Shown here: in pieces, positions 1 to 35,245 of the stretch
Layout: each line of letters opens with the position of its first letter
How positions within the stretch are numbered: the first letter of the stretch is position 1
Translations under genes and position numbers: made by a program
Notes under the pieces: model-generated
The model's input: the letters and a program-made list of their open reading frames with translations, nothing else
What the model was told of the DNA's origin: nothing
Database searches by the model: none
NCBI GenBank assembly: GCA_036273715.1
Contig: DASUHB010000035.1
Span: forward strand, 1-37,454
Direction of reading: 5' to 3'
Origin: Gemmatimonadaceae bacterium
GTDB taxonomy: Bacteria; Gemmatimonadota; Gemmatimonadetes; Gemmatimonadales; Gemmatimonadaceae
Length of the DNA stretch: 37,454 nt

Positions 1-1418
1 CGCCTAACGGATCGAGCGGCGGTGCGGGCACGGCCAGCTCGCCCTGGAATCTGACGACGGCGCTGGCTGGCGCCGGTGGCCGGATCCATCCGGGCGACAC
101 GGTGTGGATGCGCGCCGGTACCTACGGGAGCGGCGGCTACAACCAATACACCAGCACCCTCACCGGAACGGCGAGCGCACCGATCATCGTGCGTCAGTAT
201 CCCGGCGAGCGTGCGACCATCAACGGCTTCATGACCGTGAACGGCGGCTACACCACGTTCTGGGGCATGGAGTTCATGGACTCCGATCCGTTGCGCATCT
301 CGCATCAGTCCGGATCCTTCGCCACGGACATTCCCCGCGCCAACTACCAGGTGACGGTGAATGGGCCGGGCACAAAGTTCGTCAACGTCGTGGTGCATGA
401 CCTCGGGAACGGTCTCGCCGCCTGGGAGTCCGCCACCAACGCCGAAGTCTACGGATCGCTGTTCTACAACAACGGCTGGCAGGGCACTGATCGCGCCCAC
501 GGACACGGACTCTACATTCAGAATCTGAGTGGAACGAAGTTGCTGCAGGACAATATTGTGTTCGACAACTTCGATTACGGCATCCAGATCTATTCGCAAT
601 CGACGCACATCAACAACATCACGCTGGACGGCAACATCGCGTTCAACAACGGCACCCTCGGCACCTCCGAAGCGCAGGACATCGTCGCCGGCGGCACCGA
701 GAACGGCATGCAGAACTTCGTCGCGACCGGCAACATGACCTACCGGAATGACCGCTGGAAGACGGCCAAATTCGGTCTCGACTATGGCGTACCCAGCTCC
801 AACGGCCGCATCACGGGCAACTACTTCGGCGGAATGGTGCAGTTGCAGAACTGGAGCTCGTTGACATTCACCGGGAACACGCTGATCGGTGGCACGCCGC
901 AAGTCGTCGCGATCGAGCTGATGAGCGGACAGTCATTCTCCTCGTACTCGATGACCGCGCAGCAGTATTTCGAGCCTGGTTCACTGGGCATCTCGCAGCC
1001 GTTCGGCACGGTGACCGCCACAGCCGGCGGCAACGGCTACACATTCAGCGATTGGCAGCGAGTCACCGGACGCGATGCCGGAAGCTCCTTCGATGCAGGA
1101 TCGCCGAGCGGCCAGAAGATTGTGGTCGAGCCGAACAAGTACGAATCCGGTCGCGCCAACATCGCCGTGTACAATTGGAGCCATGGCGGTGCGGCGTCCG
1201 TCGACCTCTCGAGCGTTCTCAAGCCGGGCGACCAATTCGAAGTCCGTAACGCACAGAACTTCTACGGCGCACCCGCGTACAGCGGCACGTACGCCGGCGG
1301 GACGGTCAGCATCCCGCTGCCCAGCGTGGCACCGGTTGCGGCAATTGGTGGTTCGCCGACCGCTCCGTTGATGACAGCGCCAACGTTCTACGCATTCGTG
1401 GTGCTCAGGACGTCGTGA
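1..1418 (+). CDS. Right-handed parallel beta-helix protein, 5'-truncated at window edge
   Basis: The reading frame is open from base 3, so the true start lies to the left of the window; about 471 residues are visible and an ATG at 102 is internal. The visible N-terminus is Gly/Ser/Ala-rich and runs into a PGDTVWMRAGTY segment, typical of the cap of secreted pectin-lyase-like beta-helix proteins. The middle (roughly residues 100-290) has many short Asn/Gly-rich beta-strand turns of the parallel beta-helix type, and the last ~100 residues look like a small beta-sandwich ending in hydrophobic strands. Proteins of this fold are often extracellular polysaccharide lyases, epimerases or depolymerases. 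No catalytic residues can be assigned here, so enzyme activity is only inferred from its place beside a glycan locus. It converges on the minus-strand operon and shares the terminator at 1468-1520. Confidence 0.8.
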   Translation, partial: PNGSSGGAGTASSPWNLTTALAGAGGRIHPGDTVWMRAGTYGSGGYNQYTSTLTGTASAPIIVRQYPGERATINGFMTVNGGYTTFWGMEFMDSDPLRISHQSGSFATDIPRANYQVTVNGPGTKFVNVVVHDLGNGLAAWESATNAEVYGSLFYNNGWQGTDRAHGHGLYIQNLSGTKLLQDNIVFDNFDYGIQIYSQSTHINNITLDGNIAFNNGTLGTSEAQDIVAGGTENGMQNFVATGNMTYRNDRWKTAKFGLDYGVPSSNGRITGNYFGGMVQLQNWSSLTFTGNTLIGGTPQVVAIELMSGQSFSSYSMTAQQYFEPGSLGISQPFGTVTATAGGNGYTFSDWQRVTGRDAGSSFDAGSPSGQKIVVEPNKYESGRANIAVYNWSHGGAASVDLSSVLKPGDQFEVRNAQNFYGAPAYSGTYAGGTVSIPLPSVAPVAAIGGSPTAPLMTAPTFYAFVVLRTS

Positions 1419-1467
1419 CGCTCGCTCGATAAGAAACAGAGTCGTCCCGTTAGGAAACGTGCAAACG

Positions 1468-1520: not shown

Positions 1521-1533
1521 GGCTGCGCTCGCG

Positions 1534-2655
1534 TCAGACCGGGATGCGCTTTCCGCGTGCGATGCATCGGTACGCCTCACGGAGACGCTGTCCAAGCGTC
1601 TCCAACCCGCTTTCGTCGATCACTCGTTGACGACCGGCAGAACCGAGGCGACGACGGAGCTCGGGCGACTTCGCCAACTGGAGAACACAGTCCACCAGTG
1701 CGTCCTCGTCCCCGACTGGAACGTGAAAGCCGGTGTGACCGTCGCGTACGACATCGACGGTGCCGCCCGCGGCCGTAGCGACGACCGGAAGCGCAGCCGT
1801 CATCGCTTCCAGGACCACATTGGGAAATCCTTCGTGATCGGAGGACGATACGTAGATGTCGGCCTTGCCTAACTGGGCCGGAACGTCGGAGCGCTCGCCC
1901 AGCATCTCGAGTCCGTCCGGGAGAAGGCCGAGTTCCGCGGCCTGGCGTGACAGTTCCGCGCGCAATTGGCCGTCGCCGATCAGAACGCCCCGCAATCCGG
2001 GAATAGCCTGGCGAGCACGCGCAAGGACACGGAGCCAGACGTCGAATCGCTTGGCCGCGATCAAACGGCCCACCCCGAGCAGGACGACATCGCCCGTTGC
2101 CGGAGCTGCGCGGCGACCCGCCAAGGAAGCTAGCTCATCGAATTGCGGGACATCGATCGCGTTGGCCACCATTCGCACACGCGCCGGATGGGCACCAAAT
2201 GCGAGAGCGGCGCGGCACCCCGCGCTCGAATTGGCGATCAGCCCATGCGGGGCGCGAGCCAACCACGGCGTCCACCGGCCGTTCTCGCTTTGCTCGAGCG
2301 TGCCGTCGCTGCGTAGCGTTCCGACGGAAAGCGCGCGGGTCCCGAGCGCTGTCGTCGCGGCGTAAAGGTTGGCGAAAAAGTGCGTGCTTTGGACGATGTG
2401 CGGCCGAAACCGGCGCGCCTCTGCTCGCAGCGCCGAGATTCGCTTGGCGCGACCGTGTCGCTCGCCGATCCACACGGGCGAGAATCCCGCATTGCGAACA
2501 TCGGCCTCGAACGGCTCGCCGCGCGTGAGGGCGTACAGCCGTACCTCGGCGCCGCTGTCGCGGAGCGCTCGCGCCCAATAGAGCAGCTGTTTTTCTGCTC
2601 CGCCTCGCACCATGCTGCCGACGACCAGTGCGACACGGAGCCGCTCACTCCGCAT
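1534..2655 (-). CDS. Glycosyltransferase family 4 (GT-B)
   Basis: A 373-residue GT-B glycosyltransferase of the GT4 type, predicted to move a sugar from a nucleotide donor to a lipid-linked glycan on the cytoplasmic face of the membrane. The N-terminal domain begins with a Rossmann strand followed by the GGAEK acceptor-loop motif (about residues 18-22). The C-terminal donor domain carries the GT4 signature SSSDHEGFPNVVLEAM, with the E(x7)E arrangement that contacts the nucleotide sugar, followed by GGTVDVV and the DGHTGF loop. Length is normal for the family. The ATG at 2655 overlaps the stop of the upstream Wzy-like gene by 11 bases, so it is the last gene of the left minus-strand operon. 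Donor and acceptor cannot be told from sequence. Confidence 0.9.
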   Translation of the reverse strand: MRSERLRVALVVGSMVRGGAEKQLLYWARALRDSGAEVRLYALTRGEPFEADVRNAGFSPVWIGERHGRAKRISALRAEARRFRPHIVQSTHFFANLYAATTALGTRALSVGTLRSDGTLEQSENGRWTPWLARAPHGLIANSSAGCRAALAFGAHPARVRMVANAIDVPQFDELASLAGRRAAPATGDVVLLGVGRLIAAKRFDVWLRVLARARQAIPGLRGVLIGDGQLRAELSRQAAELGLLPDGLEMLGERSDVPAQLGKADIYVSSSDHEGFPNVVLEAMTAALPVVATAAGGTVDVVRDGHTGFHVPVGDEDALVDCVLQLAKSPELRRRLGSAGRQRVIDESGLETLGQRLREAYRCIARGKRIPV

Positions 2656-4063
2656 GACCGAGGCGAGGCGTCAAGGCTCTGCGAAGGCGGTTCGCCTGTT
2701 CGGCCGGCATCAACTGGCGGAGAATCGCGACGATCTGAACTCGTTCCATCTCTGCATACACGCCGGCGACGAGAAACCAGAGTCCCTTCGATTGAAATTC
2801 CGTTACGGCGAACGAGATCGCGAGCACCGCTGTAACGAGCAGCCCGAGATGAAAGAGCCGTCGTTGTCGGCTACGCCATCCGACTACGGTAAAGGAGAGT
2901 AGGAACGCACTGAGAAGCACACCGCCCGGTATACCGTTCTCGGCGAACGTCTTTACCCATGCCGAATGCGCTTGCTTGTATTCGCCGGCAGCAAAGCCCG
3001 ACTGTCCGCTCAACAGCGGCAACTGCTCCCACGTTTTTGCGAACCCGCCAGTGCCGACGCCAAGCGGATGCTGGCGGGAGATGTAGAGGCCGCCGATCAG
3101 TAGATCAGACCGGCCGCTCGTGCGGCCCGCCGCACTCCACTGGCTGCTGAAAAGTTTGTTCACGCGAAACAGCGCGCGGTCCGTCATGCCCGTGAACTGG
3201 GTTGCAATCATTGCCACAATCACTGCGGCCGCGAGGATCGCACCGAGGCGCCGGTGCAATCCAGAGATCGACATTGTGATGAACAGGACGCAACAGAGGG
3301 CGACCATCATGCCGCCGCGACTGGCGCTCAGAAAAACCCAAACGGCGTTGATGCCTAACAGCAGCGACAGCGTGGCGGTCCCACCGCGAAGCTTGCCACC
3401 CTCGCTATAGCCAAGGCAGATCGCGAGCATCGCGGTCACCGGGCACAGCGCCCACGCGTTTTCGTCGATGTAGGGCAGGACGAGGATTTGCAGGTTATAC
3501 GCAAGTCCGACGAGCGCGCCCGTCACTCCGCACACGACGCCTAACCAATACAAGCCTTCCGTGTCGCGGGCCACGGCGACGAAATAGACAATGAGGCCAA
3601 ACGTCGACACGATGTTCAGGACGTGCTGGATGCCGGCAGCCGGGTCGGGCGTAATCGTGAAACCGATGAGCAAATAGACGATGAACAATTGGAGTGTGCG
3701 CACGGTCGCTCCGCCGAGGCGAAGCACGAATGGAGCGCACAACACTGCCACCAGGACGAGCCAGTAATTGAACGTATTGAAGCGAAGGAAGCCGCCCGTG
3801 AAAACGAAGACTCGTGCCGGCGCATCCGTTGTGCAGATGATGCCGACGGAGAGCAGGCCGATGGCCGGATAACGGAGGCCGACGACGGCGCCGACGAAGC
3901 CAATGAGCGTGAGGAACAGCAGACCGTTGTGCAGTCCGAGCACGACACCAATCGCGCCGCCCGTCGCAGCCAGCACGGACGCCGTTAGGCCCAGGCGCTG
4001 CCAGCGTCCGTGGGAACGACTGACGCGAGCGTGGGGCCGGCGCGAGACGGCAGTCGTCGTCAC
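2645..4063 (-). CDS. O-antigen ligase/polymerase-like membrane protein (Wzy/WaaL type)
   Basis: A polytopic membrane protein of about 472 residues with some ten hydrophobic segments. A periplasmic region in the second half has the O-antigen ligase (PF04932-type) signs: an SASRGG stretch after a membrane segment, a HPLGVGTGGF segment, and an AHSAWVKTFAENGIPGG segment leading into the last helices. Such proteins either polymerise undecaprenyl-linked repeat units or ligate the chain to an acceptor; sequence alone does not separate the two. I chose the GTG at 4063 because it makes a GTGA overlap with the preceding stop and has GGGAG a few bases upstream. A longer GTG start at 4105 is possible, with a GGAGGAG about a dozen bases upstream. 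Its place in the operon fits the polymerase of this locus. Confidence 0.85.
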   Translation of the reverse strand: MTTTAVSRRPHARVSRSHGRWQRLGLTASVLAATGGAIGVVLGLHNGLLFLTLIGFVGAVVGLRYPAIGLLSVGIICTTDAPARVFVFTGGFLRFNTFNYWLVLVAVLCAPFVLRLGGATVRTLQLFIVYLLIGFTITPDPAAGIQHVLNIVSTFGLIVYFVAVARDTEGLYWLGVVCGVTGALVGLAYNLQILVLPYIDENAWALCPVTAMLAICLGYSEGGKLRGGTATLSLLLGINAVWVFLSASRGGMMVALCCVLFITMSISGLHRRLGAILAAAVIVAMIATQFTGMTDRALFRVNKLFSSQWSAAGRTSGRSDLLIGGLYISRQHPLGVGTGGFAKTWEQLPLLSGQSGFAAGEYKQAHSAWVKTFAENGIPGGVLLSAFLLSFTVVGWRSRQRRLFHLGLLVTAVLAISFAVTEFQSKGLWFLVAGVYAEMERVQIVAILRQLMPAEQANRLRRALTPRLGHAE

Positions 4064-5244
4064 GCGATCTCCCGAACGTCGTCCGTGTCCCACCGGTCGC
4101 GACACCGGTCCGCGATCTCCTCCGCCCAGCGCTCGAGCGTGTGCTGCTCGGCGAATCGCCGGCAGCGCGCGCGGCGCGCGGGCCAGTCATCCCAAGCGGC
4201 GGCACGCCTGACGGCGTCGGCAATCGCGTCGGCCAGCCCAACGGGCACGAGCAGTCCGCGTTCGCCGTTGGGACCCGTGATTGCGCGACCGGAGCCGACC
4301 GGAGTGGTGATGACCGGCGTGCCGCAGAGCATCGCATCGAGGCGCGCCTTGCAATAGCTCTCACTCAAAGACGGCAGCACACAAACGTCCGACTGCTGCA
4401 ATCGATCGAGCAGCGCCCCGCGATTCAGCTGGCCGAGAAAGCGCACGCCTGTAGCATCGATCCGTCGAACCAGCGCCTCGAGCTCCGCACGCGACGGCCC
4501 ATCACCCATAATCTCGAGCTCGATGCGCGGTGCGTCAGCCTGCGCGCGCAACGAGGCGATCGCTTCGATGAGGTAGCGAATTCCTTTTTCGCGAGAGAGG
4601 CGGCCCGCAAAACTGAGCCGCAGCACGCTGCCAGGCAGTCGATCGAGGTCCGGCTGCACGCGCTTCACTTCGCTGTCGGTGATGCTCGTCGCAAACACGG
4701 CCCGAACACCGTCCGCCGGGAAGTCGGCGGCGGCGCCTGTGGCGAGCATGACGTGCTTTCCCGTAGCGAGTGCGCGCATCCACGCCTTCGTGAGCCGATT
4801 CCAGACCGTGGTTTGCGTGTTCGTCTCCCAGGAACTGCAGTAGCGGGCGAAAATGCGCTTCCGCTCAGCGATCGCGATTGCCATGCCTAACAGCGGAACG
4901 TCGCCCGGCAGCGGCACATGGACGACGTCGGCGCCGCCGATTTCGCGCCGTATCGTACGCGAATAACCCGGAACGCGCGTCAGAAACGACAGCTTGCGAC
5001 GCCAGTCGTGTCCCGTCGGGCGCGCGAGTGGCACCACCCGGGCCGTCGCGGGCAGCGGGCTTCCTCCGTCACGCGGCGGAATCTCGCAGATGACAATCGT
5101 CATCGGGCCGAACACGGAGGCGAGTGCCGCCATCTGGCCTGGAAAGCCGCCATCGGTCAGCCACACGCCATCGGCGTCGCGCCAGCACTCCTTGAACGTG
5201 ACGACGCACACTGGCATCGATGCGAGGGCGGGCATGTAGATCAT
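4060..5244 (-). CDS. Glycosyltransferase family 4 (GT-B)
   Basis: A 394-residue GT-B glycosyltransferase. The C-terminal half has the GT4 donor-site pattern: LRLSFAGRLSREKGIRYLIEA (start of the second Rossmann domain, about residues 208-228), EIMGDGPSRAELE, and VLPSLSESYCKARLDAM, where the usual E(x7)E becomes E(x7)D. The exchange of the second Glu for Asp (ARLDAM instead of VxLEAM) is a mild departure from the consensus. The ATG at 5244 overlaps the stop of the deacetylase gene by ATGA, and its own stop overlaps the Wzy-like gene by GTGA, so translation is probably coupled on both sides. Predicted cytoplasmic, membrane-associated assembly of the repeat unit; sugar specificity unknown. Confidence 0.88.
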   Translation of the reverse strand: MIYMPALASMPVCVVTFKECWRDADGVWLTDGGFPGQMAALASVFGPMTIVICEIPPRDGGSPLPATARVVPLARPTGHDWRRKLSFLTRVPGYSRTIRREIGGADVVHVPLPGDVPLLGMAIAIAERKRIFARYCSSWETNTQTTVWNRLTKAWMRALATGKHVMLATGAAADFPADGVRAVFATSITDSEVKRVQPDLDRLPGSVLRLSFAGRLSREKGIRYLIEAIASLRAQADAPRIELEIMGDGPSRAELEALVRRIDATGVRFLGQLNRGALLDRLQQSDVCVLPSLSESYCKARLDAMLCGTPVITTPVGSGRAITGPNGERGLLVPVGLADAIADAVRRAAAWDDWPARRARCRRFAEQHTLERWAEEIADRCRDRWDTDDVREIA

Positions 5245-6119: not shown

Positions 6120-7204
6120 GCCGCCGTGTGCGGCGCCGCCGGTACGGTTCGCCCGCGCGTCGACCCCGGCGCAAGGGTTTCGAGAGCGACGTCGTATTCA
6201 CGCTGTGCCTTCGGCTCGATGTATCGGGGCGGCGCCGTTAGGCAGCTGGCAAGGCCCCTCACGACGCCCCATGCGTGCCGCAGGGGCGACGACGAACGGG
6301 GATCGGACGCGAAGGTCGCGACATCGTACACGGCGCCGTAGGCGAGATCCGCCCAAAAACGAAAGCGGTCGAGACGCGATGGCGCCGCGTGCCGCTTCCA
6401 GATGAAGTAGCGGTTACGCACTTCCATCCGTCCTTTTGCCACCGATGCGGGACGTCCCTCGACGGCGTGAAAATGGGACACATGCGCGTCGCCGCACCAC
6501 ACGAGCTTCCAACGTGCGCCGGCTCGCAACGACATCTCGAGGTCCTCCCCCTGTGCGTAGCCGGAAAAGAAGAGTGAAAACCGGCACTCGTTGAGAACCT
6601 CGCGGCGATACGCGACCGCACCACCCGGTACCACCTGCACGTGTCGCAGTCCGGTGAAGGGTGCCACCGTGCTCGCGGGAACGGATACACCGCTCGAAAG
6701 ATACGAGCCCGGCTCTCCGCGCTCGGCAAGCCGCAAGGCCAAGCGTGCGCGCCAGCGCCCGGACAGCCGATTGTTCATCTCGTTGATGATGGCGCCGGCG
6801 ACTGCCCCGATCTGTCGTGAGGCATCCTCTACGAACGCGCGCCGAATTTCACGGAAGTATCCGTCGTGCGGCACGCAGTCGTCATCCAGAAAGAAGACGA
6901 ACGCTCCTGCAGACGCGTCAACGCCGACGTTGCGCTGGAGCGTCAGGCCGGCCGGGCTGCGCACGTAAATGAGGTCGAACGGCGACTCGGCAGTCAGACT
7001 CCAGTCGCGGACGGCGCGCTCGGTATCTCGGCCGCTCGAGCCGTCGACGACGACAACCTCACCGGGTGGATCGGCCATCTCATTCAACGCGGCCAGCAGC
7101 GTCACGATGGCGACGGGCCGCTCGTACGTGGCAACCACCAGCGAGCAGTCCGGTAATTCGGGCCGACTGGCCCAAGCCTTCCGGAATCCGGTCAACGGCG
7201 TCAC
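6116..7204 (-). CDS. Glycosyltransferase family 2 (GT-A)
   Basis: A GT-A glycosyltransferase of about 362 residues. The catalytic domain starts almost at the N-terminus with CSLVVATYERP and contains VVVDGSSGRDTE, the nucleotide-binding VGVDASAGAFVFFLDDDC segment with the DDD metal motif, VVPGGAVAYRREVL, and GYAQGEDLEMSLRA (the ED catalytic-base region). A longer frame runs upstream to 7369, but that part lies inside the preceding gene. The GTG at 7204 makes a GTGA overlap with that gene's stop and has GAGG just upstream, so I place the start there. Predicted role is addition of one sugar of the repeat unit at the inner membrane. Confidence 0.9.
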   Translation of the reverse strand: MTPLTGFRKAWASRPELPDCSLVVATYERPVAIVTLLAALNEMADPPGEVVVVDGSSGRDTERAVRDWSLTAESPFDLIYVRSPAGLTLQRNVGVDASAGAFVFFLDDDCVPHDGYFREIRRAFVEDASRQIGAVAGAIINEMNNRLSGRWRARLALRLAERGEPGSYLSSGVSVPASTVAPFTGLRHVQVVPGGAVAYRREVLNECRFSLFFSGYAQGEDLEMSLRAGARWKLVWCGDAHVSHFHAVEGRPASVAKGRMEVRNRYFIWKRHAAPSRLDRFRFWADLAYGAVYDVATFASDPRSSSPLRHAWGVVRGLASCLTAPPRYIEPKAQREYDVALETLAPGSTRGRTVPAAPHTAA

Positions 7205-8343
7205 GTGCCTCTGTGCCGCGGCATCGCCGCCACCCGTTCGACGAGCGAGAGCATCTCCGGGAACCAGCGCTGCAGCGAGTATTCGCGCACGCACCGATCG
7301 CGACCGTTTGCGCCTAACGCCGGCAGGATCTCCGGCGATCGCGCCACCGTGCCGAGCGCCTCGTGCCACTCGTCCGGCGTCTGGGCGAGGAAGCCGGTCT
7401 TGCCCGGCTGCACGATTTCACTGTTGACGCCGACCGGCGACGCGATGGTCGGGAGTCCGGCCGCCATTCCCTGCAGCAGCTTGAGCCCGCATTTGCCGCG
7501 CTGAAACTCATTGTCGGCGAGCGGCATGATGCAGACGTCGAACAGGCGGCCGAGCGCGCCTTCTTCCTCGGCGCGCCACGGGTGAAACGTCCAGCGAAAT
7601 CCGGGGGTCGAGATCGATGGGTGCGTGTTCGTGACGATGACGAACTCGAAATCGAACTCGCGTTGGGCGCGTGCGATCGTCTCGAGGTACGGAAACAACG
7701 TATGGGCGATCGATGCATCCGATCCGGTCCAGCCGATCCGCACGGGCCTGGACGCATCGGCGGCCGACCATTGTCGGCTCTCGTATCGATCCGTGTCGAC
7801 GACGGTCGGAATGACGGTCACGTGATCGTTGTACCGGCGCGCCCAGTCGGCGAGGTACGCGTTGCCTGGTGTGACCCACGCGGCGTGTTCGCACATCCAT
7901 CGGACGCGCTGTTCGGCGCGCTGCGAGCCGGAGAAGATCGCGTCGTCGAAGTCGAAGATGACGCGAGCGTTAGACCGGAGCAGCAGGCGCTCGTGGAAAT
8001 GCCGGCCCCCGGCCAGATCCCGATTCACGAACACGACATCGACGCCGCGCGAGGCGGCGATGTCGGCGAAGCGGCGCACCTTCATGACGCCGCGTCCCGA
8101 GCGATAATGCATGCCGCGCGCGAGCCGGGTGGGCAGCCGGCTGCGCCACTGCCGGTCCGGCTTGTTCGGTCGGTGCAGCACGTCCCAGCCGGCGTCCTCG
8201 AACAGTGGAATGAACTGGACGAAGCGCATGCGGCTGGCCGGATCGAAGGCGCTCTGGGTCATGCCCATGAGCCGCCCAACGGGGCGGCGTCGTGCCGCGG
8301 GTTCGGTCCGACTCATCGTGCTCAACGTGGCCTGCGGCGTCAT
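7201..8343 (-). CDS. Glycosyltransferase, GT4-like (GT-B)
   Basis: About 380 residues. The N-terminal domain is divergent. The C-terminal domain has a clear GT-B donor site: VRIGWTGSDASIAHTLFPYL, then GKCGLKLLQGMAAGLPTIASPVG, in which the EALACG-type helix is changed to KLLQGMAAG, then GKTGF. The IFDFDDAIF segment near residue 130 is typical of GT4-like proteins from polysaccharide clusters. The frame opens at 8379, but the ATG at 8343 forms an ATGA overlap with the upstream stop and is the better start. The stop overlaps the GT2 gene by GTGA. Specificity is unknown. Confidence 0.85.
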   Translation of the reverse strand: MTPQATLSTMSRTEPAARRRPVGRLMGMTQSAFDPASRMRFVQFIPLFEDAGWDVLHRPNKPDRQWRSRLPTRLARGMHYRSGRGVMKVRRFADIAASRGVDVVFVNRDLAGGRHFHERLLLRSNARVIFDFDDAIFSGSQRAEQRVRWMCEHAAWVTPGNAYLADWARRYNDHVTVIPTVVDTDRYESRQWSAADASRPVRIGWTGSDASIAHTLFPYLETIARAQREFDFEFVIVTNTHPSISTPGFRWTFHPWRAEEEGALGRLFDVCIMPLADNEFQRGKCGLKLLQGMAAGLPTIASPVGVNSEIVQPGKTGFLAQTPDEWHEALGTVARSPEILPALGANGRDRCVREYSLQRWFPEMLSLVERVAAMPRHRGT

Positions 8344-22380: not shown

Positions 22381-22382
22381 GG

Positions 22383-26891: not shown

Positions 26892-27940
26892 GCGAGGTCC
26901 GACCAATCGAGCTCATCTTCGGCGCGCACGTCGCGCGTGATGGCGCGTCCGACGACGTAGCGCAGCTCGTCGGGTTGGATGCCGGTGCCGGGGCGCTTGA
27001 AGTCGACGTCGGCGGCGGCGAGGCGGTCGCCCTTGCACATGTCGCGGCGCGCGACCATGCGCCGGCGGAAGACCTTGCGTTTTGCGATCTCGTCGGCGCT
27101 CACGCGGCGGGCGGCGCTGCCTAACGCAGCAAACGCGTCGCGCGCGCCGTCGACGATCGCACGCAGCTCGGCCGGGTCCGCCGAGATGGCGTGGTCCCAG
27201 CCCGGGAGGTTCTTGTCGGTGGTGAAGTGCTTCTCGATCATGCACGCGCCTAACGCAACCGCCGCGATCGGGACGGCGGAGCCGAGCGTGTGGTCGCTAT
27301 AGCCCACCGGGACGTCGAAGGCCGCGCGCCACGTGTCCATCGTGCGCAGGTTCACCTGCGCCGGAGGCGACGGATAGATCGACAGGCAATGGAGAATCGC
27401 AACCGGCCCGGAGCCGGCCGCGCGCAGCGTGCCGATCGCACGCTCCACTTCGCCTAACGTCGCCATGCCGGCCGAGAGGATCACCGGCTTGTGCGTGGCG
27501 GCGACGTACTCGAGGAGCGGCAGGTGGTTCACGTCCATCGACGCGATCTTGTAGGCCGGGACATCGAGCGATTCCAGCATGTCGACTTCGGCGTTCGAGA
27601 AGCAGCTGGAGAAGAACACGACACCGGTCTTGCGGCAGTACGCCGAGATTTCTTCGTGCTGGGCGCGCGACAGCTGGTATTGGTCGACGGATTCTTCCAG
27701 CGTCGGCTGGTTGCGCTGCTTGCTCACGTACGCGGTGTTGCGGTCGTATTCGGCGCGCGAGATGAGGGACGACTTGCTCCACGACTGGAACTTGACGGCG
27801 TCGGCGCCGCATTCGCGCGCGGCGTCGATCATCGCACGGCAGAGCGTCATGTCGCCGTTGTGGTTGGCGCCGATCTCAGCGACGATATAGGGCGGCTCGC
27901 CGGGACCGACTGAGCGGCCGGCGATGTTCAACTTATCCAT
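26888..27940 (-). CDS. neuB: Nonulosonic acid synthase (NeuB/SpsE/LegI family)
   Basis: A 350-residue protein of the sialic acid synthase family, which condenses phosphoenolpyruvate with a C6 amino sugar to make a nine-carbon acid. IVAEIGANHNGDM (residues 19-31) opens the TIM barrel, ADAVKFQSW lies near 45-53, VGYSDHTLG near 215 and MIEKHFTTDK near 235. The C-terminal ~60 residues (RRMVARRDMCKGDRLAAADV and on) are the antifreeze-like SAF domain. Length is normal. The ATG at 27940 has GAGG just upstream and overlaps the glycosyltransferase stop by 13 bases. Which acid (neuraminic, legionaminic or other) cannot be decided; the LegC/PtmA/PtmE-like neighbours favour a legionaminic-like product. 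Confidence 0.92.
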   Translation of the reverse strand: MDKLNIAGRSVGPGEPPYIVAEIGANHNGDMTLCRAMIDAARECGADAVKFQSWSKSSLISRAEYDRNTAYVSKQRNQPTLEESVDQYQLSRAQHEEISAYCRKTGVVFFSSCFSNAEVDMLESLDVPAYKIASMDVNHLPLLEYVAATHKPVILSAGMATLGEVERAIGTLRAAGSGPVAILHCLSIYPSPPAQVNLRTMDTWRAAFDVPVGYSDHTLGSAVPIAAVALGACMIEKHFTTDKNLPGWDHAISADPAELRAIVDGARDAFAALGSAARRVSADEIAKRKVFRRRMVARRDMCKGDRLAAADVDFKRPGTGIQPDELRYVVGRAITRDVRAEDELDWSDLA

Positions 27941-28824
27941 AGGTCCTCGAGCTCGGGGTTGGCCACGCTCCACCACCAGATGTAGCGCGGGGGAAGGTTG
28001 TTGAGCGCGCGCACGTACGAGGCGAGTCGTTCGGGAGACGCAATCGCCTCCGCGAACACGCCACAGCGGTCGCGCGCGGCGGCGACCTGGCTGCGATACG
28101 GCTCGGCGAGCTTCCACGAGCTGTCGAGCACGCAATTGTAGTGAGCGAGCACGCGCGACGTGGCGTCTCGCACCTGCTCGATGCTGAACGGCGGCAGCAC
28201 GGCCGCGGTGTTGGCGCCGTACTGGCGATAGCGCATGCGCGGCGTCCGGTCGAAGGCCAGGCGCGCGCCTAACGACCAGGCGCGCGTCGTGAGCAGCCAA
28301 TCGAAGAGCCGGCACGATGCCGGAATCGGCAGGCAGCGCCGCAGCATGTCGGTGCGCCAGACGACGTTGGAGAAGCCGAAGACGTTCCAGCGCGGCAGCA
28401 TGGTGTCGAGGCGCAGGTCAGCCGGCGGCACGAACACGACCCCGAGGTCGCTGCCGGATTCGTCGATGACATCGAGGGCGCAGGCCGTGATGTCGGCGTC
28501 ATCTAGCGAAGCGCGGGAGGCGGCGACGCGGGACGGGAGCATCACGTCGTCGATGTCGGCGGCGACGATCCCATCGTACGCGTCGACCATGGCGGCGAGC
28601 GCGTCCTGCCGCACGGCGGACGGCGTTGCGTTAGGCGGCGCCATGCGCCAAGTGACGTGCGCGGGCTCGCCGATGACGGCGAACACCTCGCGCTCGGTGA
28701 CGTCATCGAGGCTGATCCAGACGTCGAAGTCCTGGTCCGTTTGGGCGCGCACCGACGCGTACCAATTGCCGAAGAACCGCAGTGCAGCGCGATAGACTGT
28801 CGCGTGGATGGCGAGACGGCTCAC
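27928..28824 (-). CDS. Glycosyltransferase-like protein (GT-A fold)
   Basis: About 298 residues. The N-terminal part reads as a GT-A fold: FFGNWYASVRAQTDQDFDVWISLDD, then VDAYDGIVAADIDDVMLPSRV, in which DIDD may serve as the metal-binding DxD. The second half is rich in Arg and aromatic residues and has LFDWLLTTRAWSLGARLAFD. It resembles GT2-type enzymes found beside nonulosonate synthases, but I cannot name a family member. The GTG at 28824 forms a GTGA overlap with the SDR stop, so the longer frame upstream is a shadow. Confidence 0.7.
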   Translation of the reverse strand: MSRLAIHATVYRAALRFFGNWYASVRAQTDQDFDVWISLDDVTEREVFAVIGEPAHVTWRMAPPNATPSAVRQDALAAMVDAYDGIVAADIDDVMLPSRVAASRASLDDADITACALDVIDESGSDLGVVFVPPADLRLDTMLPRWNVFGFSNVVWRTDMLRRCLPIPASCRLFDWLLTTRAWSLGARLAFDRTPRMRYRQYGANTAAVLPPFSIEQVRDATSRVLAHYNCVLDSSWKLAEPYRSQVAAARDRCGVFAEAIASPERLASYVRALNNLPPRYIWWWSVANPELEDLWIS

Positions 28825-29600
28825 CACGCGGTCCAGCCGCCTTCGATGAGCACGTTGCTGCCGGTGGCGTACGAGGATGCATCGGACGCGAGAAAGAGCA
28901 CGGCGCCGAGGACTTCGTCGGCGGTCATGAGGCGGCGCATCGGCGACTTTCTGGCGAAGCGCTCGACGAACGCGGGCTCGTGATTGTTGGCAACGCCATG
29001 CGGCGTGACACAGTTGACGCGCACGCCGCGCTCGGCCCAGTAGGCGCCGAGGTAGCGCGTGAGCATGATGACGCCGCCTTTGCTCGCGGTATAGGCGACC
29101 GGATTGCCAAGGCTGTTGTTCTCGTACAGATCCGGATTGGATGAAACGACGCCGTAGGTCGACGCAACGTTGATGATGCTGCCCTTCCCTTGCTCGAGCA
29201 TCACGGCGCCGAAATCGCGGCACGTGAGGAACGTGCCGGTGAGGTTGACGGAGATGATCGAGTCCCAGAGCTCTTGCGGAAACGATTCGGCTTTGGCGTC
29301 GGTGAAGCCTTTGGGCTTGAACTGGTGGTTGTTGATGAGCACGTCCACGCGACCGAAGCGGGCGAGCACTGCATCGCGCAGCGCCGCGACCTGGTCGGCA
29401 TTCGACACATCGCACTCGAACGCGGCGGCCGGTTCGCCTAACGATTTGGCGAGGCCGGCGGGCGATGCCGCCGAGATGTCCACGAGCGCGAGCCGCGCGC
29501 CGCGCTCGTGAAACGCGCGGGCGAGTGAGCGACCGATGAGGCCGCTAGCGCCGGTGAGGACCACGACACGATCGCTAACGTCGAAAACCGGGTCGGACAT
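28821..29600 (-). CDS. SDR oxidoreductase, PtmA-like
   Basis: A 259-residue classical short-chain dehydrogenase: TGASGLIG (residues 16-23) for NAD(P), INNHQ at 89-93 in place of NNAG, Ser147, Tyr170 and Lys174 (YTASK). The phrases STYGVVSSNPDLYE, GNPVAYTASKGGVI and TPHGVANNHEPAF are those of the PtmA group of flagellin-glycosylation/legionaminic acid clusters. In Campylobacter PtmA acts early, in making the GlcN-6-P used by the GDP-linked route. It is the first gene of the left minus-strand operon. ATG 29600 with GAGAGG six bases upstream is preferred to GTG 29606. Confidence 0.88.
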   Translation of the reverse strand: MSDPVFDVSDRVVVLTGASGLIGRSLARAFHERGARLALVDISAASPAGLAKSLGEPAAAFECDVSNADQVAALRDAVLARFGRVDVLINNHQFKPKGFTDAKAESFPQELWDSIISVNLTGTFLTCRDFGAVMLEQGKGSIINVASTYGVVSSNPDLYENNSLGNPVAYTASKGGVIMLTRYLGAYWAERGVRVNCVTPHGVANNHEPAFVERFARKSPMRRLMTADEVLGAVLFLASDASSYATGSNVLIEGGWTAW

Positions 29601-29754: not shown

Positions 29755-30867
29755 ATGTCCGCAACGCTACAAGTTGCCGATCGCCCCGACTTGTTGAAAT
29801 TGATGTTGGATGATCTCGGGTCGGCACCTGCGATGTTCAAACCGACGAACTATTGGTCGGTGTACGAGCGGCGATTCGTGCCCGAGCTCACGCAACGCGG
29901 GCTGGTCGATTTTCGTCGGAGGCGCCGGACGGTACTGACGAGCTTCGGCGCGTCCGACTATCGTCCGCGCGGCGCGTATTTCGATCTCAATCAGAGCCGG
30001 CTCTTCGGCAACCGCGTTACACAGCGCCTGCCCGGATGGAAAAGCTTGCTCGCATCGCTGAACAACCTGTTCAACCGCGATGGATGGTCGCCGGTGGCAC
30101 TCGACGTATACGAATGCGGGATGCGCGAGCTGCAGGAAACAGCCTTCCGCCTAACCCAGTTATACGGGCGCCAGACCGGTGCTCGGCCCATCGATTCCAT
30201 CGAGCTTTCGACGGCGGGCAACCCGGAGGATGCCTTCGAGATTGCGGGGCGACCGTATACGATGCGCGCGTTGTATTACTATCTCCGCTACGCGTACTGC
30301 TGCCAGTTCGTGGATTTCGAGAAGGTAGATCTGCTCGTCGAGTTGGGATCCGGCGTTGGACGCCAGGTCGAAATCATTCGCAAACTCCATCCGCACGTTC
30401 GCATCGTCGCGTTCGACATACCGCCGCAGCTCTATGTGTGCGAACAATTCCTGTCGTCGATTTTTCCGGATTCGGTGACGGGATACGAAACGACGCGGAA
30501 CTGGCGCACGCTGCCGAGTCTTCCGGCTGGCGGCATCGCAATCTGCGGGACTGCGCAGTTTCCCCTGCTGCGCGACCAGCACGTCGATCTCTTCTGGAAC
30601 GCAGTGAGCTTTCAGGAGATGGAACCGGACGTCGTTGCAAACTACCTCGGGTATGTCGCGCCGGCAGCCAAGGCCGTCTATCTGCAACAGCGTATGAGCG
30701 GCAAGGAAGTCTCGCGTGCACCGGGTGAGCCGGGCGTCCTTCGACAGACGACGCTCGACGACTACCGGCGAGGCCTGCCTAACCACACCCTCGTCGACAT
30801 GTCGCCCTGCATCCGTCCCCTCGGCATGCTGCGCGATCATCACGATTCGTTCTGGCGGGCATCCTGA
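29755..30867 (+). CDS. Putative sugar O-methyltransferase (NanM-like)
   Basis: A 370-residue protein, the only plus-strand gene within the glycan block. The N-terminal ~190 residues form a helical lead domain with FKPTNYWSVYERRF. A SAM-binding Rossmann core follows: LLVELGSGVGRQVEII (near 194-209) and VRIVAFDIPPQLYV. This layout is that of the putative sugar O-methyltransferases found with nonulosonate genes (TIGR04371-type), so O-methylation of a sugar in this polymer is likely. ATG 29755 has GGGAG eight bases upstream; the frame continues to 29536, but the extra part lies in the promoter region and over the SDR gene. Its stop is 15 bases from that of the convergent minus-strand gene, with no terminator between them. 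Confidence 0.8.
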   Translation: MSATLQVADRPDLLKLMLDDLGSAPAMFKPTNYWSVYERRFVPELTQRGLVDFRRRRRTVLTSFGASDYRPRGAYFDLNQSRLFGNRVTQRLPGWKSLLASLNNLFNRDGWSPVALDVYECGMRELQETAFRLTQLYGRQTGARPIDSIELSTAGNPEDAFEIAGRPYTMRALYYYLRYAYCCQFVDFEKVDLLVELGSGVGRQVEIIRKLHPHVRIVAFDIPPQLYVCEQFLSSIFPDSVTGYETTRNWRTLPSLPAGGIAICGTAQFPLLRDQHVDLFWNAVSFQEMEPDVVANYLGYVAPAAKAVYLQQRMSGKEVSRAPGEPGVLRQTTLDDYRRGLPNHTLVDMSPCIRPLGMLRDHHDSFWRAS

Positions 30868-30882: not shown

Positions 30883-32040
30883 TCATCGGGCAACCCAGCG
30901 CCTGCCGTGTTCGACCGCTAATCGAAGCGGTCTGACGACGTGATACAGCGCGCGCAGCTCGCGCGGCAGGCGTACGGCAGTCAGGTCCGACACGTGGGGA
31001 GAACCGACCACGTCGATCGAAAAGAGGATGCGATCGAGGAGGTGGTCTCGCGCCCTGAGCTGGAGACGAAGCTGCTCGCCGGTGGACAGCGGCCGTTCGG
31101 TTAGGCATCGAGCCGCGGCTTCGTCGATAAGCGATTGAACGACCGGAGATCTGCCGGCCATCCATCCGTATTCCCGGAGTCCTGTGCCTAACAGGACATC
31201 GCACAGGCCAAGGCCAACGTCGAGCATGCGAGCGACGCCGGCACCTGCGGCGAGATCGCGAACGGCACCGGGGCTCACGTCCGGCGCCGACCGAATGGCC
31301 GCATACACATCGCACACGCGCACGAGCTGCGTCCAATTGTGTTTGGCGCCGTGCACGCACAGATACACGATCAGCGCCGCGGGGTCGAGCGCGGGAAGAA
31401 CGCGACCCAGGAGCGAGACCGTCGTCATATGAGTCCACGCCCAATCATCACGGCGCAGCGCCCCGAGTCCGCGGCGGCCGAGCGCCCAATGGATCTCGAG
31501 GAACACGCCGGTCGCATCGTTGTACAGCGGCAGGTGATACTCGGGTCCAAGCAGCACGTCGTCCAGAGAGTCGGGAACGACGTTCAGCGGCATGTAGCCA
31601 TCGTTGTGCAGAAGGACCCGCACGCGGCCGAGGTCGCGCCGGTGGACGACGAGATCGAGGTCGCTGAACTGGCGCAGCGACAGGTCTCCGTAGGCTGCCA
31701 CCGTAAGCGACGGTCCTTTGATGGGCATCAAGACGATGCCGACGGCGGCGAAACGGTCGGCCAACTCCAGCAGCGTCGTTGCGAGAGCTACGTTCCGAAG
31801 CGCATTGGCGTCGAAGTCGTGTTTCGTCGCTTCGACTGCCATCGGTGCGACCTGGCGCCCAACTGACTGTGCCGCAGCAAGTGCAACATGAATCAGCGGA
31901 GACACTGCGTGGCGTCTTGCCGCGCCAATCAGGTCATCCCAATCGGTGATGGCGGAGGCGGCGCGCGCGACTTCGTCCAGGTCGGCAAGACCGAGCGTCG
32001 AACGACACGCTGCGAGCAGCAGGTTGTGTCGGGGATGCAC
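30883..32040 (-). CDS. Nucleotidyltransferase-like protein (PF14907 type)
   Basis: About 385 residues. The LMPIKGPSL segment (Lys108-Gly109), followed by QFSDLDLVVHRRD with Asp127 and Asp129, is the KG ... DxD pattern of the uncharacterised nucleotidyltransferase family often found in exopolysaccharide and exosortase-linked clusters. The first ~95 residues are helical, and the rest contains HWALGRRG, ALIVYLCVHGAKHNW and a long helical tail. The reaction is unknown. The start is a GTG with no visible ribosome site, 48 bases after the OPX stop. It is the last gene of the right minus-strand block. Confidence 0.75.
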   Translation of the reverse strand: MHPRHNLLLAACRSTLGLADLDEVARAASAITDWDDLIGAARRHAVSPLIHVALAAAQSVGRQVAPMAVEATKHDFDANALRNVALATTLLELADRFAAVGIVLMPIKGPSLTVAAYGDLSLRQFSDLDLVVHRRDLGRVRVLLHNDGYMPLNVVPDSLDDVLLGPEYHLPLYNDATGVFLEIHWALGRRGLGALRRDDWAWTHMTTVSLLGRVLPALDPAALIVYLCVHGAKHNWTQLVRVCDVYAAIRSAPDVSPGAVRDLAAGAGVARMLDVGLGLCDVLLGTGLREYGWMAGRSPVVQSLIDEAAARCLTERPLSTGEQLRLQLRARDHLLDRILFSIDVVGSPHVSDLTAVRLPRELRALYHVVRPLRLAVEHGRRWVAR

Positions 32041-32088
32041 CGTGCGATCCGGTGCGCGCTCTGCAGAAGCGCGCGCGGAGATCGAGAC

Positions 32089-32715: not shown

Positions 32716-32785
32716 GGTCAGGGCGAGCACGGTGTGAAGTGGGTGACGAACGCCGTATGAAGACGACGCCGGGGCGGCGCCGCCG

Positions 32786-35245
32786 TCATGCTTCGACAGT
32801 GTCGTAGTAGTCGTAATAGTAGTAGCCGCCGTACTGCGGCACCTTGTGGTCCGGGTCGTTGAGCACCGCGCCGACCACGCGCACGCCTAACGACGACATG
32901 CGCTGCACGGCATCCTGCGCCACCTGGCGATCGGTGTGTCCGGCGCGCAGCACGAGAATGACGCCGTCGGCCAGCGAGCCCAAGATGAGCGCGTCGGCGG
33001 CGGCGTGGACGGGCGGCGTGTCGAGAATGACGGTGTCGTACTCTCTGCCTAACCGCTCGAGCGCCGCGCGCATCTGCGGACCGCCGAGGAGCTCCGATGG
33101 GTTCGGCGGCAGCGCGCCGGCCGGCAGCAGCGAGAGGTTGTCGACCATCGTGTGCTGCACCACCTGTTCGAGCGACGCCTGGCCCAGCATCAGTTGCGTG
33201 AGGCCCGGTTCGCGCGCGGCGTGGAAGACCTTGTGCAGGCGCGCGCGGCGCAGGTCGCAGTCGACGATCAACACCCGCATGCCTTGCTGCGCGAACGTCA
33301 CCGCGAGATTCGCCGCGGTCGTGGTCTTGCCATCCTGCGGCGACGGGCTGGTGATGACGATGGTGCGCAGCGACTGCACCGCCTGCGAGAAGATCAGGTT
33401 GGTGCGCAGCGTACGGAACGCTTCGGCCGTGCTCGACCGGAAGTCGGAGACGGTGACGAGCGATTCGCCGTTCTGCGTGCCGTTGCCCACGCGCCAGCCG
33501 GCGCGCGGGGTCGGTAACCGCAGCGACATGCTGCCCATCTTGAGCCGGCGGACCGAATGCGGACTGACGATTTGCGGAATGATCGCGAGGCCCGGAATCT
33601 GGAGCATGCTCTCGATTTCCTCGCGGCGGCGGATGGCGGTATTGAGCCGCTCGACGAGGAACGCGGCGCCAGTGCCTAACAGAAGACCGACGATGATGCC
33701 GGTGAGCAGTTTGGTGCGGCGGCTGGTGCCGATGGGTGCGTACGGCGACGTCGCGAGATCCACGATCTCGACCTCGCCCGCCTCGACCGCCTCGGCGATG
33801 CGCGCCTTCTGATATTCGTCGCGCAGCTCGTCGGCCATGTTGCGGGCGGATTGGACCTGCTCCACGAGCCGGGCTTCGCCGGCCTGCGTGGCGGGCAGGG
33901 TCTTGAGCGCGTCGGTGCTGCGCTGGCGGAGCTCATCCAGGGCGGCGACGCGCGCATCGATCGACGTGATCTGGCTGCCGACGGCGTCGCCTAACTGACC
34001 CTGCGCGGTGGCGACGAGCGCGTGGAGCCGTTGGACATCGGGGTTGGTCTGCGCGCTGCCCCACTTGCCCACCGAGGTCGAGTCGAGTGCGGCCTGGTAG
34101 CCGACGAGCTGCGTATAGATCGCCTGCACCACCGGGTTGTCGGCGATGCCCGGCGACGCGACGAGCGCGCTCAGCGTCTTCTGGCGCGATGGGCCCGAAT
34201 CATCCTTGGCGAGCTCGTTGAGCAGCGATTGATACGTCGTGCGATCGGCGACCAGCTGCGCACGCTGCACGTCGAGGTTGAGCAATCCCGTCTGCTCGGC
34301 GGAGACGACGGCATCGGACGAACCGTAGACCTGCTTGTTGGTCCGGTAGGCGCTCAGGTGGTCCTGCGCGATCTGCAGGAGCGAGTCGGTCTGGTGCAGC
34401 TGCGCTTCGACGAAGATGCGCCGGCGGCGCGACTGCTGCTGCGCGTTGGCGGCGTTCTGCACCTGGAAGACGTCGACGGCCGTGTTGACGATTTGCTGGG
34501 CGACGTACGGATCCTGGGCGGTGTACGAGACGTCGACGACGTCGGTGCGATCGCGCTGGTGCGCGCTCAGGCCGGCGAGCACCATGTCGATCGCGGCGGT
34601 GCGCGAGATGGTGTAGAGCGCGCCCTTCTGCGAATTGGCGGGCCTGGCGTGCACGGAGAACGCGATGCCGCCGGCGTGCACGGTGCTGTCGTACGGGACG
34701 AGCGTCGTCGTGGGGCCCGACACGACGTTCACTCCGTTAGGCATGAACTCCAGGCGGACCGTGTCGCCGCTCGTTTCGGACGCGAGCGAGACGTTGCGCA
34801 GCGCGGACGCCGGGAAGCCCCGGCTCTGCACGCGGAGTCCCAATGCTTGCGAGTCCACCACCGCCGCGGCGACGGCGCGGCTGCGCAGCACCTGCATCTG
34901 CGAGGTGATCGGGTCGGTCCAGTAGCCGCCCATCATGCCCTGGCCGGCGTTGTCGTCGAGGTTTCCGGCGAGCTCGCGCCGCTCATCCACCAGGCGGATC
35001 ACTGCGGTGGCCTGATACTCGAGCGCCTGCTTGCTGATGCGGTAGGCAGCGATCGCGGTGGCCGCGGCGGTCACGGCAATGATGAGCCACAGGTGGCGGC
35101 GCAGCGTGGCCACCGACTCCTTGATGTCGATGGACTCCGCGCCGCCTTCGACGTCGTCATTTGGACGAGTCGTGGGCGTGCTCGCTGCTGTGCCCGGCGT
35201 GAGGGCAGAACCGTGCGGCGTGCCGCTAGGGAGCAAATCGGACAT
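32786..35245 (-). CDS. Polysaccharide co-polymerase/BY-kinase (Wzc type)
   Basis: An 819-residue fused chain-length regulator and tyrosine autokinase of the inner membrane. One membrane helix (LWLIIAVTAAATAIAA) follows a ~50-residue cytoplasmic head; a periplasmic coiled-coil region with Wzz and GNVR-like parts leads to a second helix near residues 512-530. The cytoplasmic kinase has Walker A SPSPQDGKTTTA (near 635), Walker A' VLIVDCDLR (near 658) and Walker B VILDTPPVHAAADA (near 740). The tail has seven Tyr in QYGGYYYYDYYD, the autophosphorylation cluster. Phosphorylation cycling should set chain length and assembly with the OPX protein encoded downstream. Confidence 0.93.
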   Translation of the reverse strand: MSDLLPSGTPHGSALTPGTAASTPTTRPNDDVEGGAESIDIKESVATLRRHLWLIIAVTAAATAIAAYRISKQALEYQATAVIRLVDERRELAGNLDDNAGQGMMGGYWTDPITSQMQVLRSRAVAAAVVDSQALGLRVQSRGFPASALRNVSLASETSGDTVRLEFMPNGVNVVSGPTTTLVPYDSTVHAGGIAFSVHARPANSQKGALYTISRTAAIDMVLAGLSAHQRDRTDVVDVSYTAQDPYVAQQIVNTAVDVFQVQNAANAQQQSRRRRIFVEAQLHQTDSLLQIAQDHLSAYRTNKQVYGSSDAVVSAEQTGLLNLDVQRAQLVADRTTYQSLLNELAKDDSGPSRQKTLSALVASPGIADNPVVQAIYTQLVGYQAALDSTSVGKWGSAQTNPDVQRLHALVATAQGQLGDAVGSQITSIDARVAALDELRQRSTDALKTLPATQAGEARLVEQVQSARNMADELRDEYQKARIAEAVEAGEVEIVDLATSPYAPIGTSRRTKLLTGIIVGLLLGTGAAFLVERLNTAIRRREEIESMLQIPGLAIIPQIVSPHSVRRLKMGSMSLRLPTPRAGWRVGNGTQNGESLVTVSDFRSSTAEAFRTLRTNLIFSQAVQSLRTIVITSPSPQDGKTTTAANLAVTFAQQGMRVLIVDCDLRRARLHKVFHAAREPGLTQLMLGQASLEQVVQHTMVDNLSLLPAGALPPNPSELLGGPQMRAALERLGREYDTVILDTPPVHAAADALILGSLADGVILVLRAGHTDRQVAQDAVQRMSSLGVRVVGAVLNDPDHKVPQYGGYYYYDYYDTVEA

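Follow-up and report, generated by a model that had tools for sequence, protein, structure and literature searches.

What one short DNA word, GTTAGGC (complement, GCCTAAC), is doing throughout the genes of a member of the Gemmatimonadaceae is the question raised by this locus. The window (the whole stretch analyzed, 37,454 nucleotides of contig DASUHB010000035.1) holds 45 exact matches (2-8 through 34736-34742; Table 1). Dinucleotide shuffles of the window (n = 100) gave a mean of 1.62 and a maximum of 6, the first-order Markov expectation was 1.36, and the word was the top-ranked 7-mer at that order. The 45 copies reported in the initial annotation, 35 in one orientation and 10 in the other, are thus real (expected, about 1.6), and its "ten times expectation" was an underestimate, the enrichment being about 30-fold. 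To our knowledge, few bacteria carry a dispersed word at such density.

The bias in orientation within the window (10 copies forward, 35 reverse) tracks gene direction, with 29 of 31 open reading frames (ORFs) lying on the reverse strand. For phase assignment, 31 ORFs were chosen by eye from the ORF list. Twenty-six copies were read only as TTA-GGC, 7 as CTA-AC, 5 as CCT-AAC, and 1 (24373) only as GTT-AGG; 5 fell in two-ORF overlaps, with TTA-GGC in one ORF and GTT-AGG in the other, and the copy at the window edge (2-8) lay outside any listed ORF. These phases agree with the initial annotation at every coordinate that it named.

Table 1. Copies of GTTAGGC/GCCTAAC in the window, with strand, coding phase, and ORF
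Coordinates	Strand	Phase	Context
2..8	-		window edge
1867..1873	-	TTA-GGC	glycosyltransferase ORF 1534-2655
3353..3359	-	TTA-GGC	O-antigen ligase ORF 2645-4105
3539..3545	-	TTA-GGC	
3984..3990	+	CTA-AC	O-antigen ligase ORF 2645-4105
4885..4891	-	TTA-GGC	
6237..6243	+	CTA-AC	
7312..7318	-		two-ORF overlap
8511..8517	-	TTA-GGC	
9441..9447	-	TTA-GGC	
11128..11134	-	TTA-GGC	
12529..12535	+	CTA-AC	
13754..13760	-	TTA-GGC	
14381..14387	-	TTA-GGC	
16260..16266	-	TTA-GGC	ABC transporter ORF
16953..16959	+	CTA-AC	
17651..17657	-	TTA-GGC	
18398..18404	-	TTA-GGC	
19132..19138	-	TTA-GGC	cytidylyltransferase ORF; within an over-long ORF too
19887..19893	-	TTA-GGC	aminotransferase ORF
20463..20469	-	TTA-GGC	
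20933..20939	-		two-ORF overlap
21548..21554	-	TTA-GGC	
22036..22042	-		two-ORF overlap
23780..23786	+	CCT-AAC	
24373..24379	-	GTT-AGG	
25000..25006	-	TTA-GGC	nucleotidyltransferase ORF
26130..26136	+	CCT-AAC	formyltransferase ORF
26497..26503	+	CTA-AC	
26751..26757	-	TTA-GGC	
27119..27125	-	TTA-GGC	NeuB ORF
27248..27254	-	TTA-GGC	
27452..27458	-	TTA-GGC	
28267..28273	-		two-ORF overlap
28630..28636	+	CCT-AAC	
29436..29442	-	TTA-GGC	
30149..30155	-	CTA-AC	+ strand ORF 29536-30867
30777..30783	-	CCT-AAC	+ strand ORF
31100..31106	+	CTA-AC	
31186..31192	-	TTA-GGC	
32885..32891	-	TTA-GGC	ORF 32786-35245 (AAA_31)
33047..33053	-	TTA-GGC	
33674..33680	-	TTA-GGC	
33989..33995	-	TTA-GGC	
34736..34742	+	CCT-AAC	

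The genome from which the window comes (4.34 Mb; here G000), a metagenome-assembled genome assigned to the Gemmatimonadaceae from its rpoB, carries 5,785 copies (1.33 per kb), nearly balanced in orientation (2,845 forward versus 2,940 reverse). A 345-kb sample of it that includes the window held 423 copies (expected, 14.6 under a first-order and 45 under a third-order model). Its called genes contain 240 TTA codons, 185 of them within GTTAGGC. A count near Markov expectation or copies confined to this locus would have spoken against the initial annotation; neither was found. All four stop-free coding phases are occupied, and because the word is read in four phases, and so many compatible sites are filled, codon-pair usage or a protein motif is ruled out as the cause. 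The selection on DNA itself proposed at the outset was borne out, as selection or drive, by these phases, by both orientations, by some copies outside called genes, by flank preferences beyond codons, and by the genome-wide spread.

At TTA-GGC sites, position -3 is T in 0.36 of cases in G000 (control sites, 0.04), and position -1 is C in 0.91 of cases in a second word-rich genome, G021 (control sites, 0.40). Such preferences are graded, differ between lineages, and extend to 10 to 13 bp. CGTTAGG outnumbers GTTAGGC in G025, G032, G016, G010, G030, and G033 and is outnumbered by it in G000, G021, and G035. The commonest near-miss in G000 is GTTGGGC (194 copies, 4-fold enriched); GTAAGGC (25 copies) is 4-fold enriched at order 3, and GTTAGGA, GTTAGTC, and GTTAGAC (21 to 24 copies each) are enriched 3- to 4-fold at order 2 and about as expected at order 3. 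GTTAGGG and GTTAGGT are enriched in G025 (7.5-fold and 4.1-fold, respectively). A constant core whose flanks vary from lineage to lineage as dialects, one of the criteria for uptake sequences, is seen here.

Integron attC/attI core sites follow GTTRRRY, a pattern matched by GTTAGGC and by the enriched GTTGGGC and GTTAGAC. Relatives in a second family (f2) carry attC-like pairs about 83 bp apart, and in a sample of G019, 12 of 13 CGTTAGG copies stand at intervals in a 9-kb array adjoining an integron integrase, from which we conclude that integrons supply copies in word-poor genomes. Integron sites, or codon-pair usage, are nonetheless very improbable as the source of the word: GTTRRRY words as a group show no enrichment in G000 (0.6 of order-2 expectation for GTTAAGC and 0.67 for GTTAGGT), where copies are single, dispersed, intragenic, and in four phases, and the integrase (above cut-off in 33 of 60 relatives, 8 of 13 word-rich genomes of family f1, and many word-poor ones) does not track the word. 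Integrase nontracking and single dispersed copies refute an attC origin as a general explanation, arrays accounting for some word-poor genomes only.

Among 395 Gemmatimonadota genomes, 22 have at least 600 GTTAGGC copies, and the distribution is patchy, the word being abundant in several related lineages and not in their sisters. The only one of six genomes of genus g1 to lack it is G003 (9 copies), called the same genus as G000 and 87% identical to it over 6.4 kb in the rpoB region. The G003 genome is 88% complete. Samples of word-poor G026, G020, and G027 showed no substitute word; candidate signals proved mostly to be local repeats in G010, G011, G022, and G027 and one cassette-like array in G019. 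Avoidance of the word was not supported in 120-kb samples of G026 (1 versus 1.4 expected) and G020 (0 versus 1.1) or in a 60-kb sample of G027 (0 versus 1.4); the reversed-word control lacks composition matching. Positions change between relatives, and of 8 words of G000 that were aligned with G002, 1 is present in both. Between G000 and G004, retention (19 of 24 words one way and 19 of 20 the other) did not differ clearly from that of control 7-mers (52 of 71, both ways). Patchiness, lineage-specific flanks, and spacing go beyond what the initial annotation could know.

Gaps of 30 to 200 bp between words are scarce in G000 (48 versus 78 expected), G021 (7 versus 25), G035 (7 versus 22), and, for CGTTAGG, G025 (16 versus 28; weaker with GTTAGGC, 13 versus 19.7, P = 0.058). 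The deficit remains in G000 and G021 with draws restricted to protein-compatible sites. Gaps below 30 bp exceed expectation in G021 (13 versus 4.6), 12 of the 13 being same-orientation and 9 in tandem-repeat runs. No excess of close inverted pairs was found in G000 (37 pairs below 150 bp: 15 ++, 9 -+, 7 +-, and 6 --) or G021 (19 pairs: 9 ++, 7 --, 2 -+, and 1 +-). By a crude gene caller, intergenic words in G021 seem denser where genes converge (17 in 5.9 kb) than where they diverge (3 in 7.2 kb).

The word is present on every G021 replicon sampled, including 19 copies in 20 kb of a 21-kb replicon. A type I restriction-modification island had 0 words in a 20-kb sample, the other 19 samples averaging 13. 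Low density extends beyond this island to a housekeeping stretch, L144 (UvrC, EngA, SurE, and DapF homologues), with 3 words in 20 kb (Poisson P of about 0.002, one of 20 samples).

Chi, KOPS, and AIMS are words oriented with replication. GTTAGGC is likewise short, over-represented, and within genes, but no replication polarity was detected in G021 by a coarse sampling of that one genome (214 words across 18 samples, each of 20 kb; the best split was 44, versus a random mean of 32; P = 0.096). The early comparison with Chi thus fails, no orientation switch being detected along the sampled chromosome, and a Chi-like word is rejected. The binding site of another chromosome-organizing or recombination protein, for which spacing would be relevant, we consider improbable. 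Scarcity at 30 to 200 bp in four lineages and words on all G021 replicons sampled are in its favor, whereas no orientation or replichore pattern was detected in G021. Such sites, as far as we know, seldom number thousands and do not appear or vanish between sister species.

The main rival, which we rate as unlikely, is a word like HIP1 of cyanobacteria: GCCYAAC/GTTRGGC would be modified by an orphan methyltransferase, and new copies would then be favored, to about one per kb, through methyl-directed mismatch repair or some other factor that recognizes the modification. The near-miss GTTGGGC preserves GCCYAAC, and the word-rich 21-kb replicon is compatible with intracellular drive. Eco57I/MmeI-like enzymes recognize nonpalindromic sites of 6 to 7 bp, and one of about 1,050 amino acids, its N-terminal consensus without a visible nuclease motif, occurs in 57 of 60 relatives; among the f1 genomes searched, its ortholog is missing only from G003, also the only word-free g1 genome. 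The enzyme is present in most word-free genomes too and therefore does not track the word, and G003 is incomplete, as given above. The methyltransferase search covered PF01555, PF00145, and Eco57I/MmeI-like (IIG-like) enzymes. The search for PF01555 enzymes came up empty in 8 of the 13 word-rich genomes of f1 (including G000, G021, G025, and G010) and that for PF00145 enzymes in 7 of 11 tested (including G000, G021, G025, G033, and G035), and these beta-class and C5 families are rejected as the driver. Graded preferences reaching 10 to 13 bp, which the usual methyltransferase site lacks, also argue against this rival, as does the lack of a palindrome. Elhai's model, in the available text of PMC4390886, predicts density near one per kb and few gains close to an existing site; even spacing is thus expected under methylation as well. 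In the same text, HIP1 (GCGATCGC) is about one per kb, patchy in relatives, and proposed to accumulate by a drive-like process. HIP1 itself is a palindrome with linked cognate methyltransferases. The initial comparison with HIP1 holds in part, for density and patchiness, and fails for the palindrome; no methyltransferase tracking the word was found in the families tested. No gene tracking the word was found among ComEC, integron integrase, PF01555, PF00145, and Eco57I/MmeI-like enzymes, and a literature search returned nothing on a methylated motif or methyltransferase in Gemmatimonadetes.

Tentatively, and a little short of an even chance, we favor GTTAGGC as the core of a self-DNA signal with dialects, similar to a DNA uptake sequence and spread by molecular drive. 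A DNA-binding receptor for natural transformation would favor word-bearing fragments, and uptake of kin DNA with recombination would propagate every new copy. A single word per fragment would suffice, so that words would stay apart; drift in receptor specificity would yield dialects, and the word would decay to background in a lineage losing the preference. The observations are thousands of dispersed copies, graded flanks, scarcity at 30 to 200 bp, turnover of positions with density kept high, and the word in separate lineages beside relatives without it. The enriched near-misses, the word-free restriction-modification sample, and the undetected replication polarity in G021 also speak for this reading. 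ComEC, the one competence gene searched, was found in 12 of 13 word-rich f1 genomes (exception, G001, 75% complete) and in 55 of 60 relatives; being equally common in word-free genomes, it fails to explain the word pattern. Counted against an uptake signal are the absence of inverted-pair excess, low-density L144, the excess of gaps below 30 bp in G021, and the weaker spacing deficit of GTTAGGC in G025, as well as the words on the 21-kb replicon, which are not an obvious product of recombination with chromosomal DNA.

Comparable traits are described for the DUS of Neisseriaceae and USS of Pasteurellaceae (available text of PMC3630211 and PMC1939737): a short nonpalindromic core, about one per kb in both orientations, graded consensus, lineage dialects, enriched near-misses, and no replication polarity detected. 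On evenness of spacing, the text of PMC1939737 is itself divided. GTTAGGC differs in its phylum, its unrelated sequence, its 7- to 8-bp core in high-GC DNA, its patchiness even inside one genus, its lack of excess close inverted pairs, and its putative receptor and competence. The DUS comparison first suggested holds in part, for density, dialect flanks, and undetected polarity. Literature searches found nothing on competence, natural transformation, or DNA uptake sequences in Gemmatimonadetes/Gemmatimonas; judging by title, no match for Gemmatimonadota and DNA uptake concerned such a word, and none of the matches listed for GTTAGGC concerned Gemmatimonadota.

Uptake-sequence systems are known to us only from two proteobacterial families. 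With somewhat more doubt, we suggest that the Gemmatimonadaceae may have, outside those families, a putative uptake-sequence-like self-recognition with a GTTAGG core and lineage dialects, which would have been gained or lost independently even between near kin, as in one pair that shares 87% identity in the rpoB region. Word-bearing lineages and word-free near relatives of one family can be aligned site by site, which opens the origin of such words, whether by biased uptake, methyl-directed repair, or other drive, to direct tests, both comparative and in a cultured relative. If the word is an uptake signal, kin-biased transformation would be routine in this soil phylum, which is large and little studied.

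Exact GTTAGGC occurs 45 times in the window, 10 copies on the plus and 35 on the minus strand, as the initial annotation had counted; 100 dinucleotide shuffles averaged 1.62. At order 1 (1.36 expected) it is the most strongly enriched of all 7-mers there. The excess first noticed at this locus holds well beyond it: the host genome (G000; 4.34 Mb, 81 contigs) carries 5,785 copies (2,845 plus, 2,940 minus; 1.33 per kb), and the window is typical at 1.20 per kb. The excess also stands against a Markov background. In a 345-kb sample of G000, window included, GTTAGGC was the top 7-mer, with 423 copies (expected, 14.6, 13.2, and 45.2 at orders 1, 2, and 3). Genes in the window form an exopolysaccharide cluster (glycosyltransferases, O-antigen ligase, NeuB, cytidylyltransferase, aminotransferases, and export protein). 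The nearest named matches of G000 rpoB were Gemmatimonadetes and Gemmatimonadaceae MAGs (79 to 82% protein identity), and family f1 was therefore taken as Gemmatimonadaceae and the phylum as Gemmatimonadota.

Genes in the 345-kb sample were called with a simple ORF caller that misses some (69% and 80% called coding in two runs). All four stop-free phases were in use, and those named in the initial annotation were right; protein-compatible sites were filled by the exact word at 62/139 Pro-Asn (CCT-AAC), 41/135 Leu-Thr (CTA-AC), 188/648 Leu-Gly (TTA-GGC), and 15/238 Val-Arg (GTT-AGG) positions. The word contained 185 of the 240 TTA codons in called genes. Copies outside called genes (136/423 and 117/423 in the two runs) are an inflated figure, because the caller missed genes. 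With four phases used and compatible sites filled in each, DNA, not protein, carries the demand for GTTAGGC, as had been proposed.

Over 6.4 kb aligned with the related genome G003 (87.0% identity), G000 had 13 words and G003 none, Leu-Gly being kept by other codons at 10 of the 11 TTA-GGC sites. Across the same stretch, G004, of the genus of G000, was 96.1% identical and had 10 of the 13 words in common; at the other three, G004 reads GTTGGGC, once on the opposite strand (GCCCAAC). In two aligned regions, 19/24 G000 words were kept in G004 and 19/20 G004 words were present in G000 (control 7-mers, 52/71). The more distant word-rich G002 had 1/8 aligned G000 words in common. Sites turn over, and density stays high.

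The preferred sequence extends past seven bases, with flank dialects between lineages. In G000, T occupied −3 in 0.36 of Leu-Gly sites versus 0.04 of control sites (13/30 in G004), C at −1 was preferred, T at +7 avoided, and A at +9 raised; in G021, C at −1 reached 0.91 of such sites (control, 0.40), and A, avoided at +8, was more frequent at +7. CGTTAGG outnumbered GTTAGGC in samples of G025 (GTTAGGG and GTTAGGT enriched) and G016 (GTTAGGT enriched) and, by whole-genome counts, in G025, G032, G016, G010, G030, and G033; GTTAGGC was the more numerous in G000, G021, and G035. The near-miss GTTGGGC showed 4-fold enrichment in G000, against 2.5-fold in G021; signals for rarer near-misses were mixed.

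At least 600 copies (word-rich) were found in 22/395 genomes of the phylum (next highest, 436). Family f1 accounts for 17 of them, counting G000, and another family, f2, for 5, all from genus g44 and with moderate counts (G055, G134, G158, G188, and G374 at 642 to 960 copies; G054 of this genus had 203). On an rpoB tree (27 rows, six without a genome count of the word), word-rich genomes fell at four positions or more, next to word-poor relatives: G003 (9 copies in about 3.8 Mb) adjoins G000 and G004 (support, 100/100), G019 adjoins word-rich G025 (96/96), and G020 lies among word-rich G021 and G035 (G020-G035 support, just 87/75). A further such position is the clade G016/G010/G030/G033, with 785 to 1,167 copies.

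Within G021, the two megabase replicons carried 15 and 18 words per 20 kb, and its 21-kb replicon exceeded the mean of the other samples (Table). One of 20 samples, L141, had no words and the GC of the surrounding DNA; it may have been recently acquired. Housekeeping sample L144 has only 3 words, so low density is no clean mark of foreign DNA.

Integron integrases, over the cut-off in 33/60 relatives, were rejected as a driver, their presence not tracking the word. In the G019 sample, 12/13 CGTTAGG copies came from a 9-kb array adjoining an integrase.

Table. Locations of features bearing on the word
Feature	Location	Observation
Window cluster	window 1-37454	Sialic-acid-like character; NeuB, cytidylyltransferase, two DegT/DnrJ/EryC1 family aminotransferases
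L141	G021:C2:2660001-2680000	0 words in 20 kb; type I restriction-modification HsdR, HsdS, HsdM and Mrr homologues
L144	G021:C2:3750001-3770000	3 words in 20 kb; UvrC, EngA, SurE, DapF homologues
L210, 21-kb replicon	G021:C1	19 words in 20 kb
G019 array	L184 (G019:C36:1-20000), ~919-9209	CAGCTTAG and CGTTAGG repeated at spacings from a few hundred to ~1,100 bp; probable attC cassette array
Integron integrase	G019:C36:9819-10733	Adjoins the G019 array
Word pairs	G036:C43, G051:C55, G051:C109	Minus/plus GTTAGGC copies separated by ~83 bp, the pairs recurring at intervals; probable integron attC arrays
G021 tandem 12-16 bp repeats with word	L131:18236, L137:15630, L140:18710, L149:8118	Some within called genes
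Eco57I/MmeI-like protein	L190:2434-5655 (G000:C34:21433-24654)	

Gaps of 30 to 200 bp were too few against random placement in G000 (48 versus 78 expected), G021 (7 versus 25), G035 (7 versus 22), and, scored with CGTTAGG, G025 (16 versus 28). The deficit was repeated in later-fetched samples (G035, 3 versus 11.8; G025, 13 versus 20.8) and was weaker in G025 scored with GTTAGGC (13 versus 19.7; P 0.058). Under a stricter null, a random draw among protein-compatible sites only, gaps of 30 to 100 bp numbered 9 versus 24 in G000 and 2 versus 7.8 in G021, and those of 100 to 200 bp 19 versus 28 and 2 versus 8. An excess of gaps below 30 bp (G021, 13 versus 4.6; slight in G035, 7 versus 4.1) runs counter to a simple spacing picture; 9/13 in G021 fell within tandem-repeat runs.

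Spacing alone does not decide between uptake and methylation, since under Elhai's methyl-directed repair model for HIP1 (PMC4390886, section 3.4) a word would likewise be expected to saturate at about one copy per kb. A methylation-linked, HIP1-like word, which that prediction would suit, seems less likely than the uptake reading and is its main rival. No PF01555 methyltransferase was found in 8/13 word-rich f1 genomes (G000, G001, G004, G005, G010, G021, G025, and G032) and no PF00145 in 7/11 tested genomes (G000, G004, G021, G025, G032, G033, and G035). PF07669 was present in 22/22 genomes tested, mainly because of one conserved protein, an orphan-looking Eco57I/MmeI-like adenine methyltransferase (~1,050 aa) that was strongly matched in 57/60 relatives. 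Its ortholog was not found in G003, alone among the family f1 genomes searched (weak paralogues only), and no PD-ExK-like motif was seen by eye in its N-terminal consensus. This enzyme is a candidate reader of the word, not a switch. Some other DNA-binding function for the word is improbable. ComEC was present in 55/60 relatives, regardless of the word. By analogy, we tentatively favor GTTAGGC as a possible uptake-sequence-like signal under molecular drive; uptake sequences so driven, as described in passages of PMC1939737 and PMC3630211, would fit what these genomes show: flanks that are graded and differ by dialect, spaced copies in either orientation, turnover of sites, and an enrichment of near-misses.
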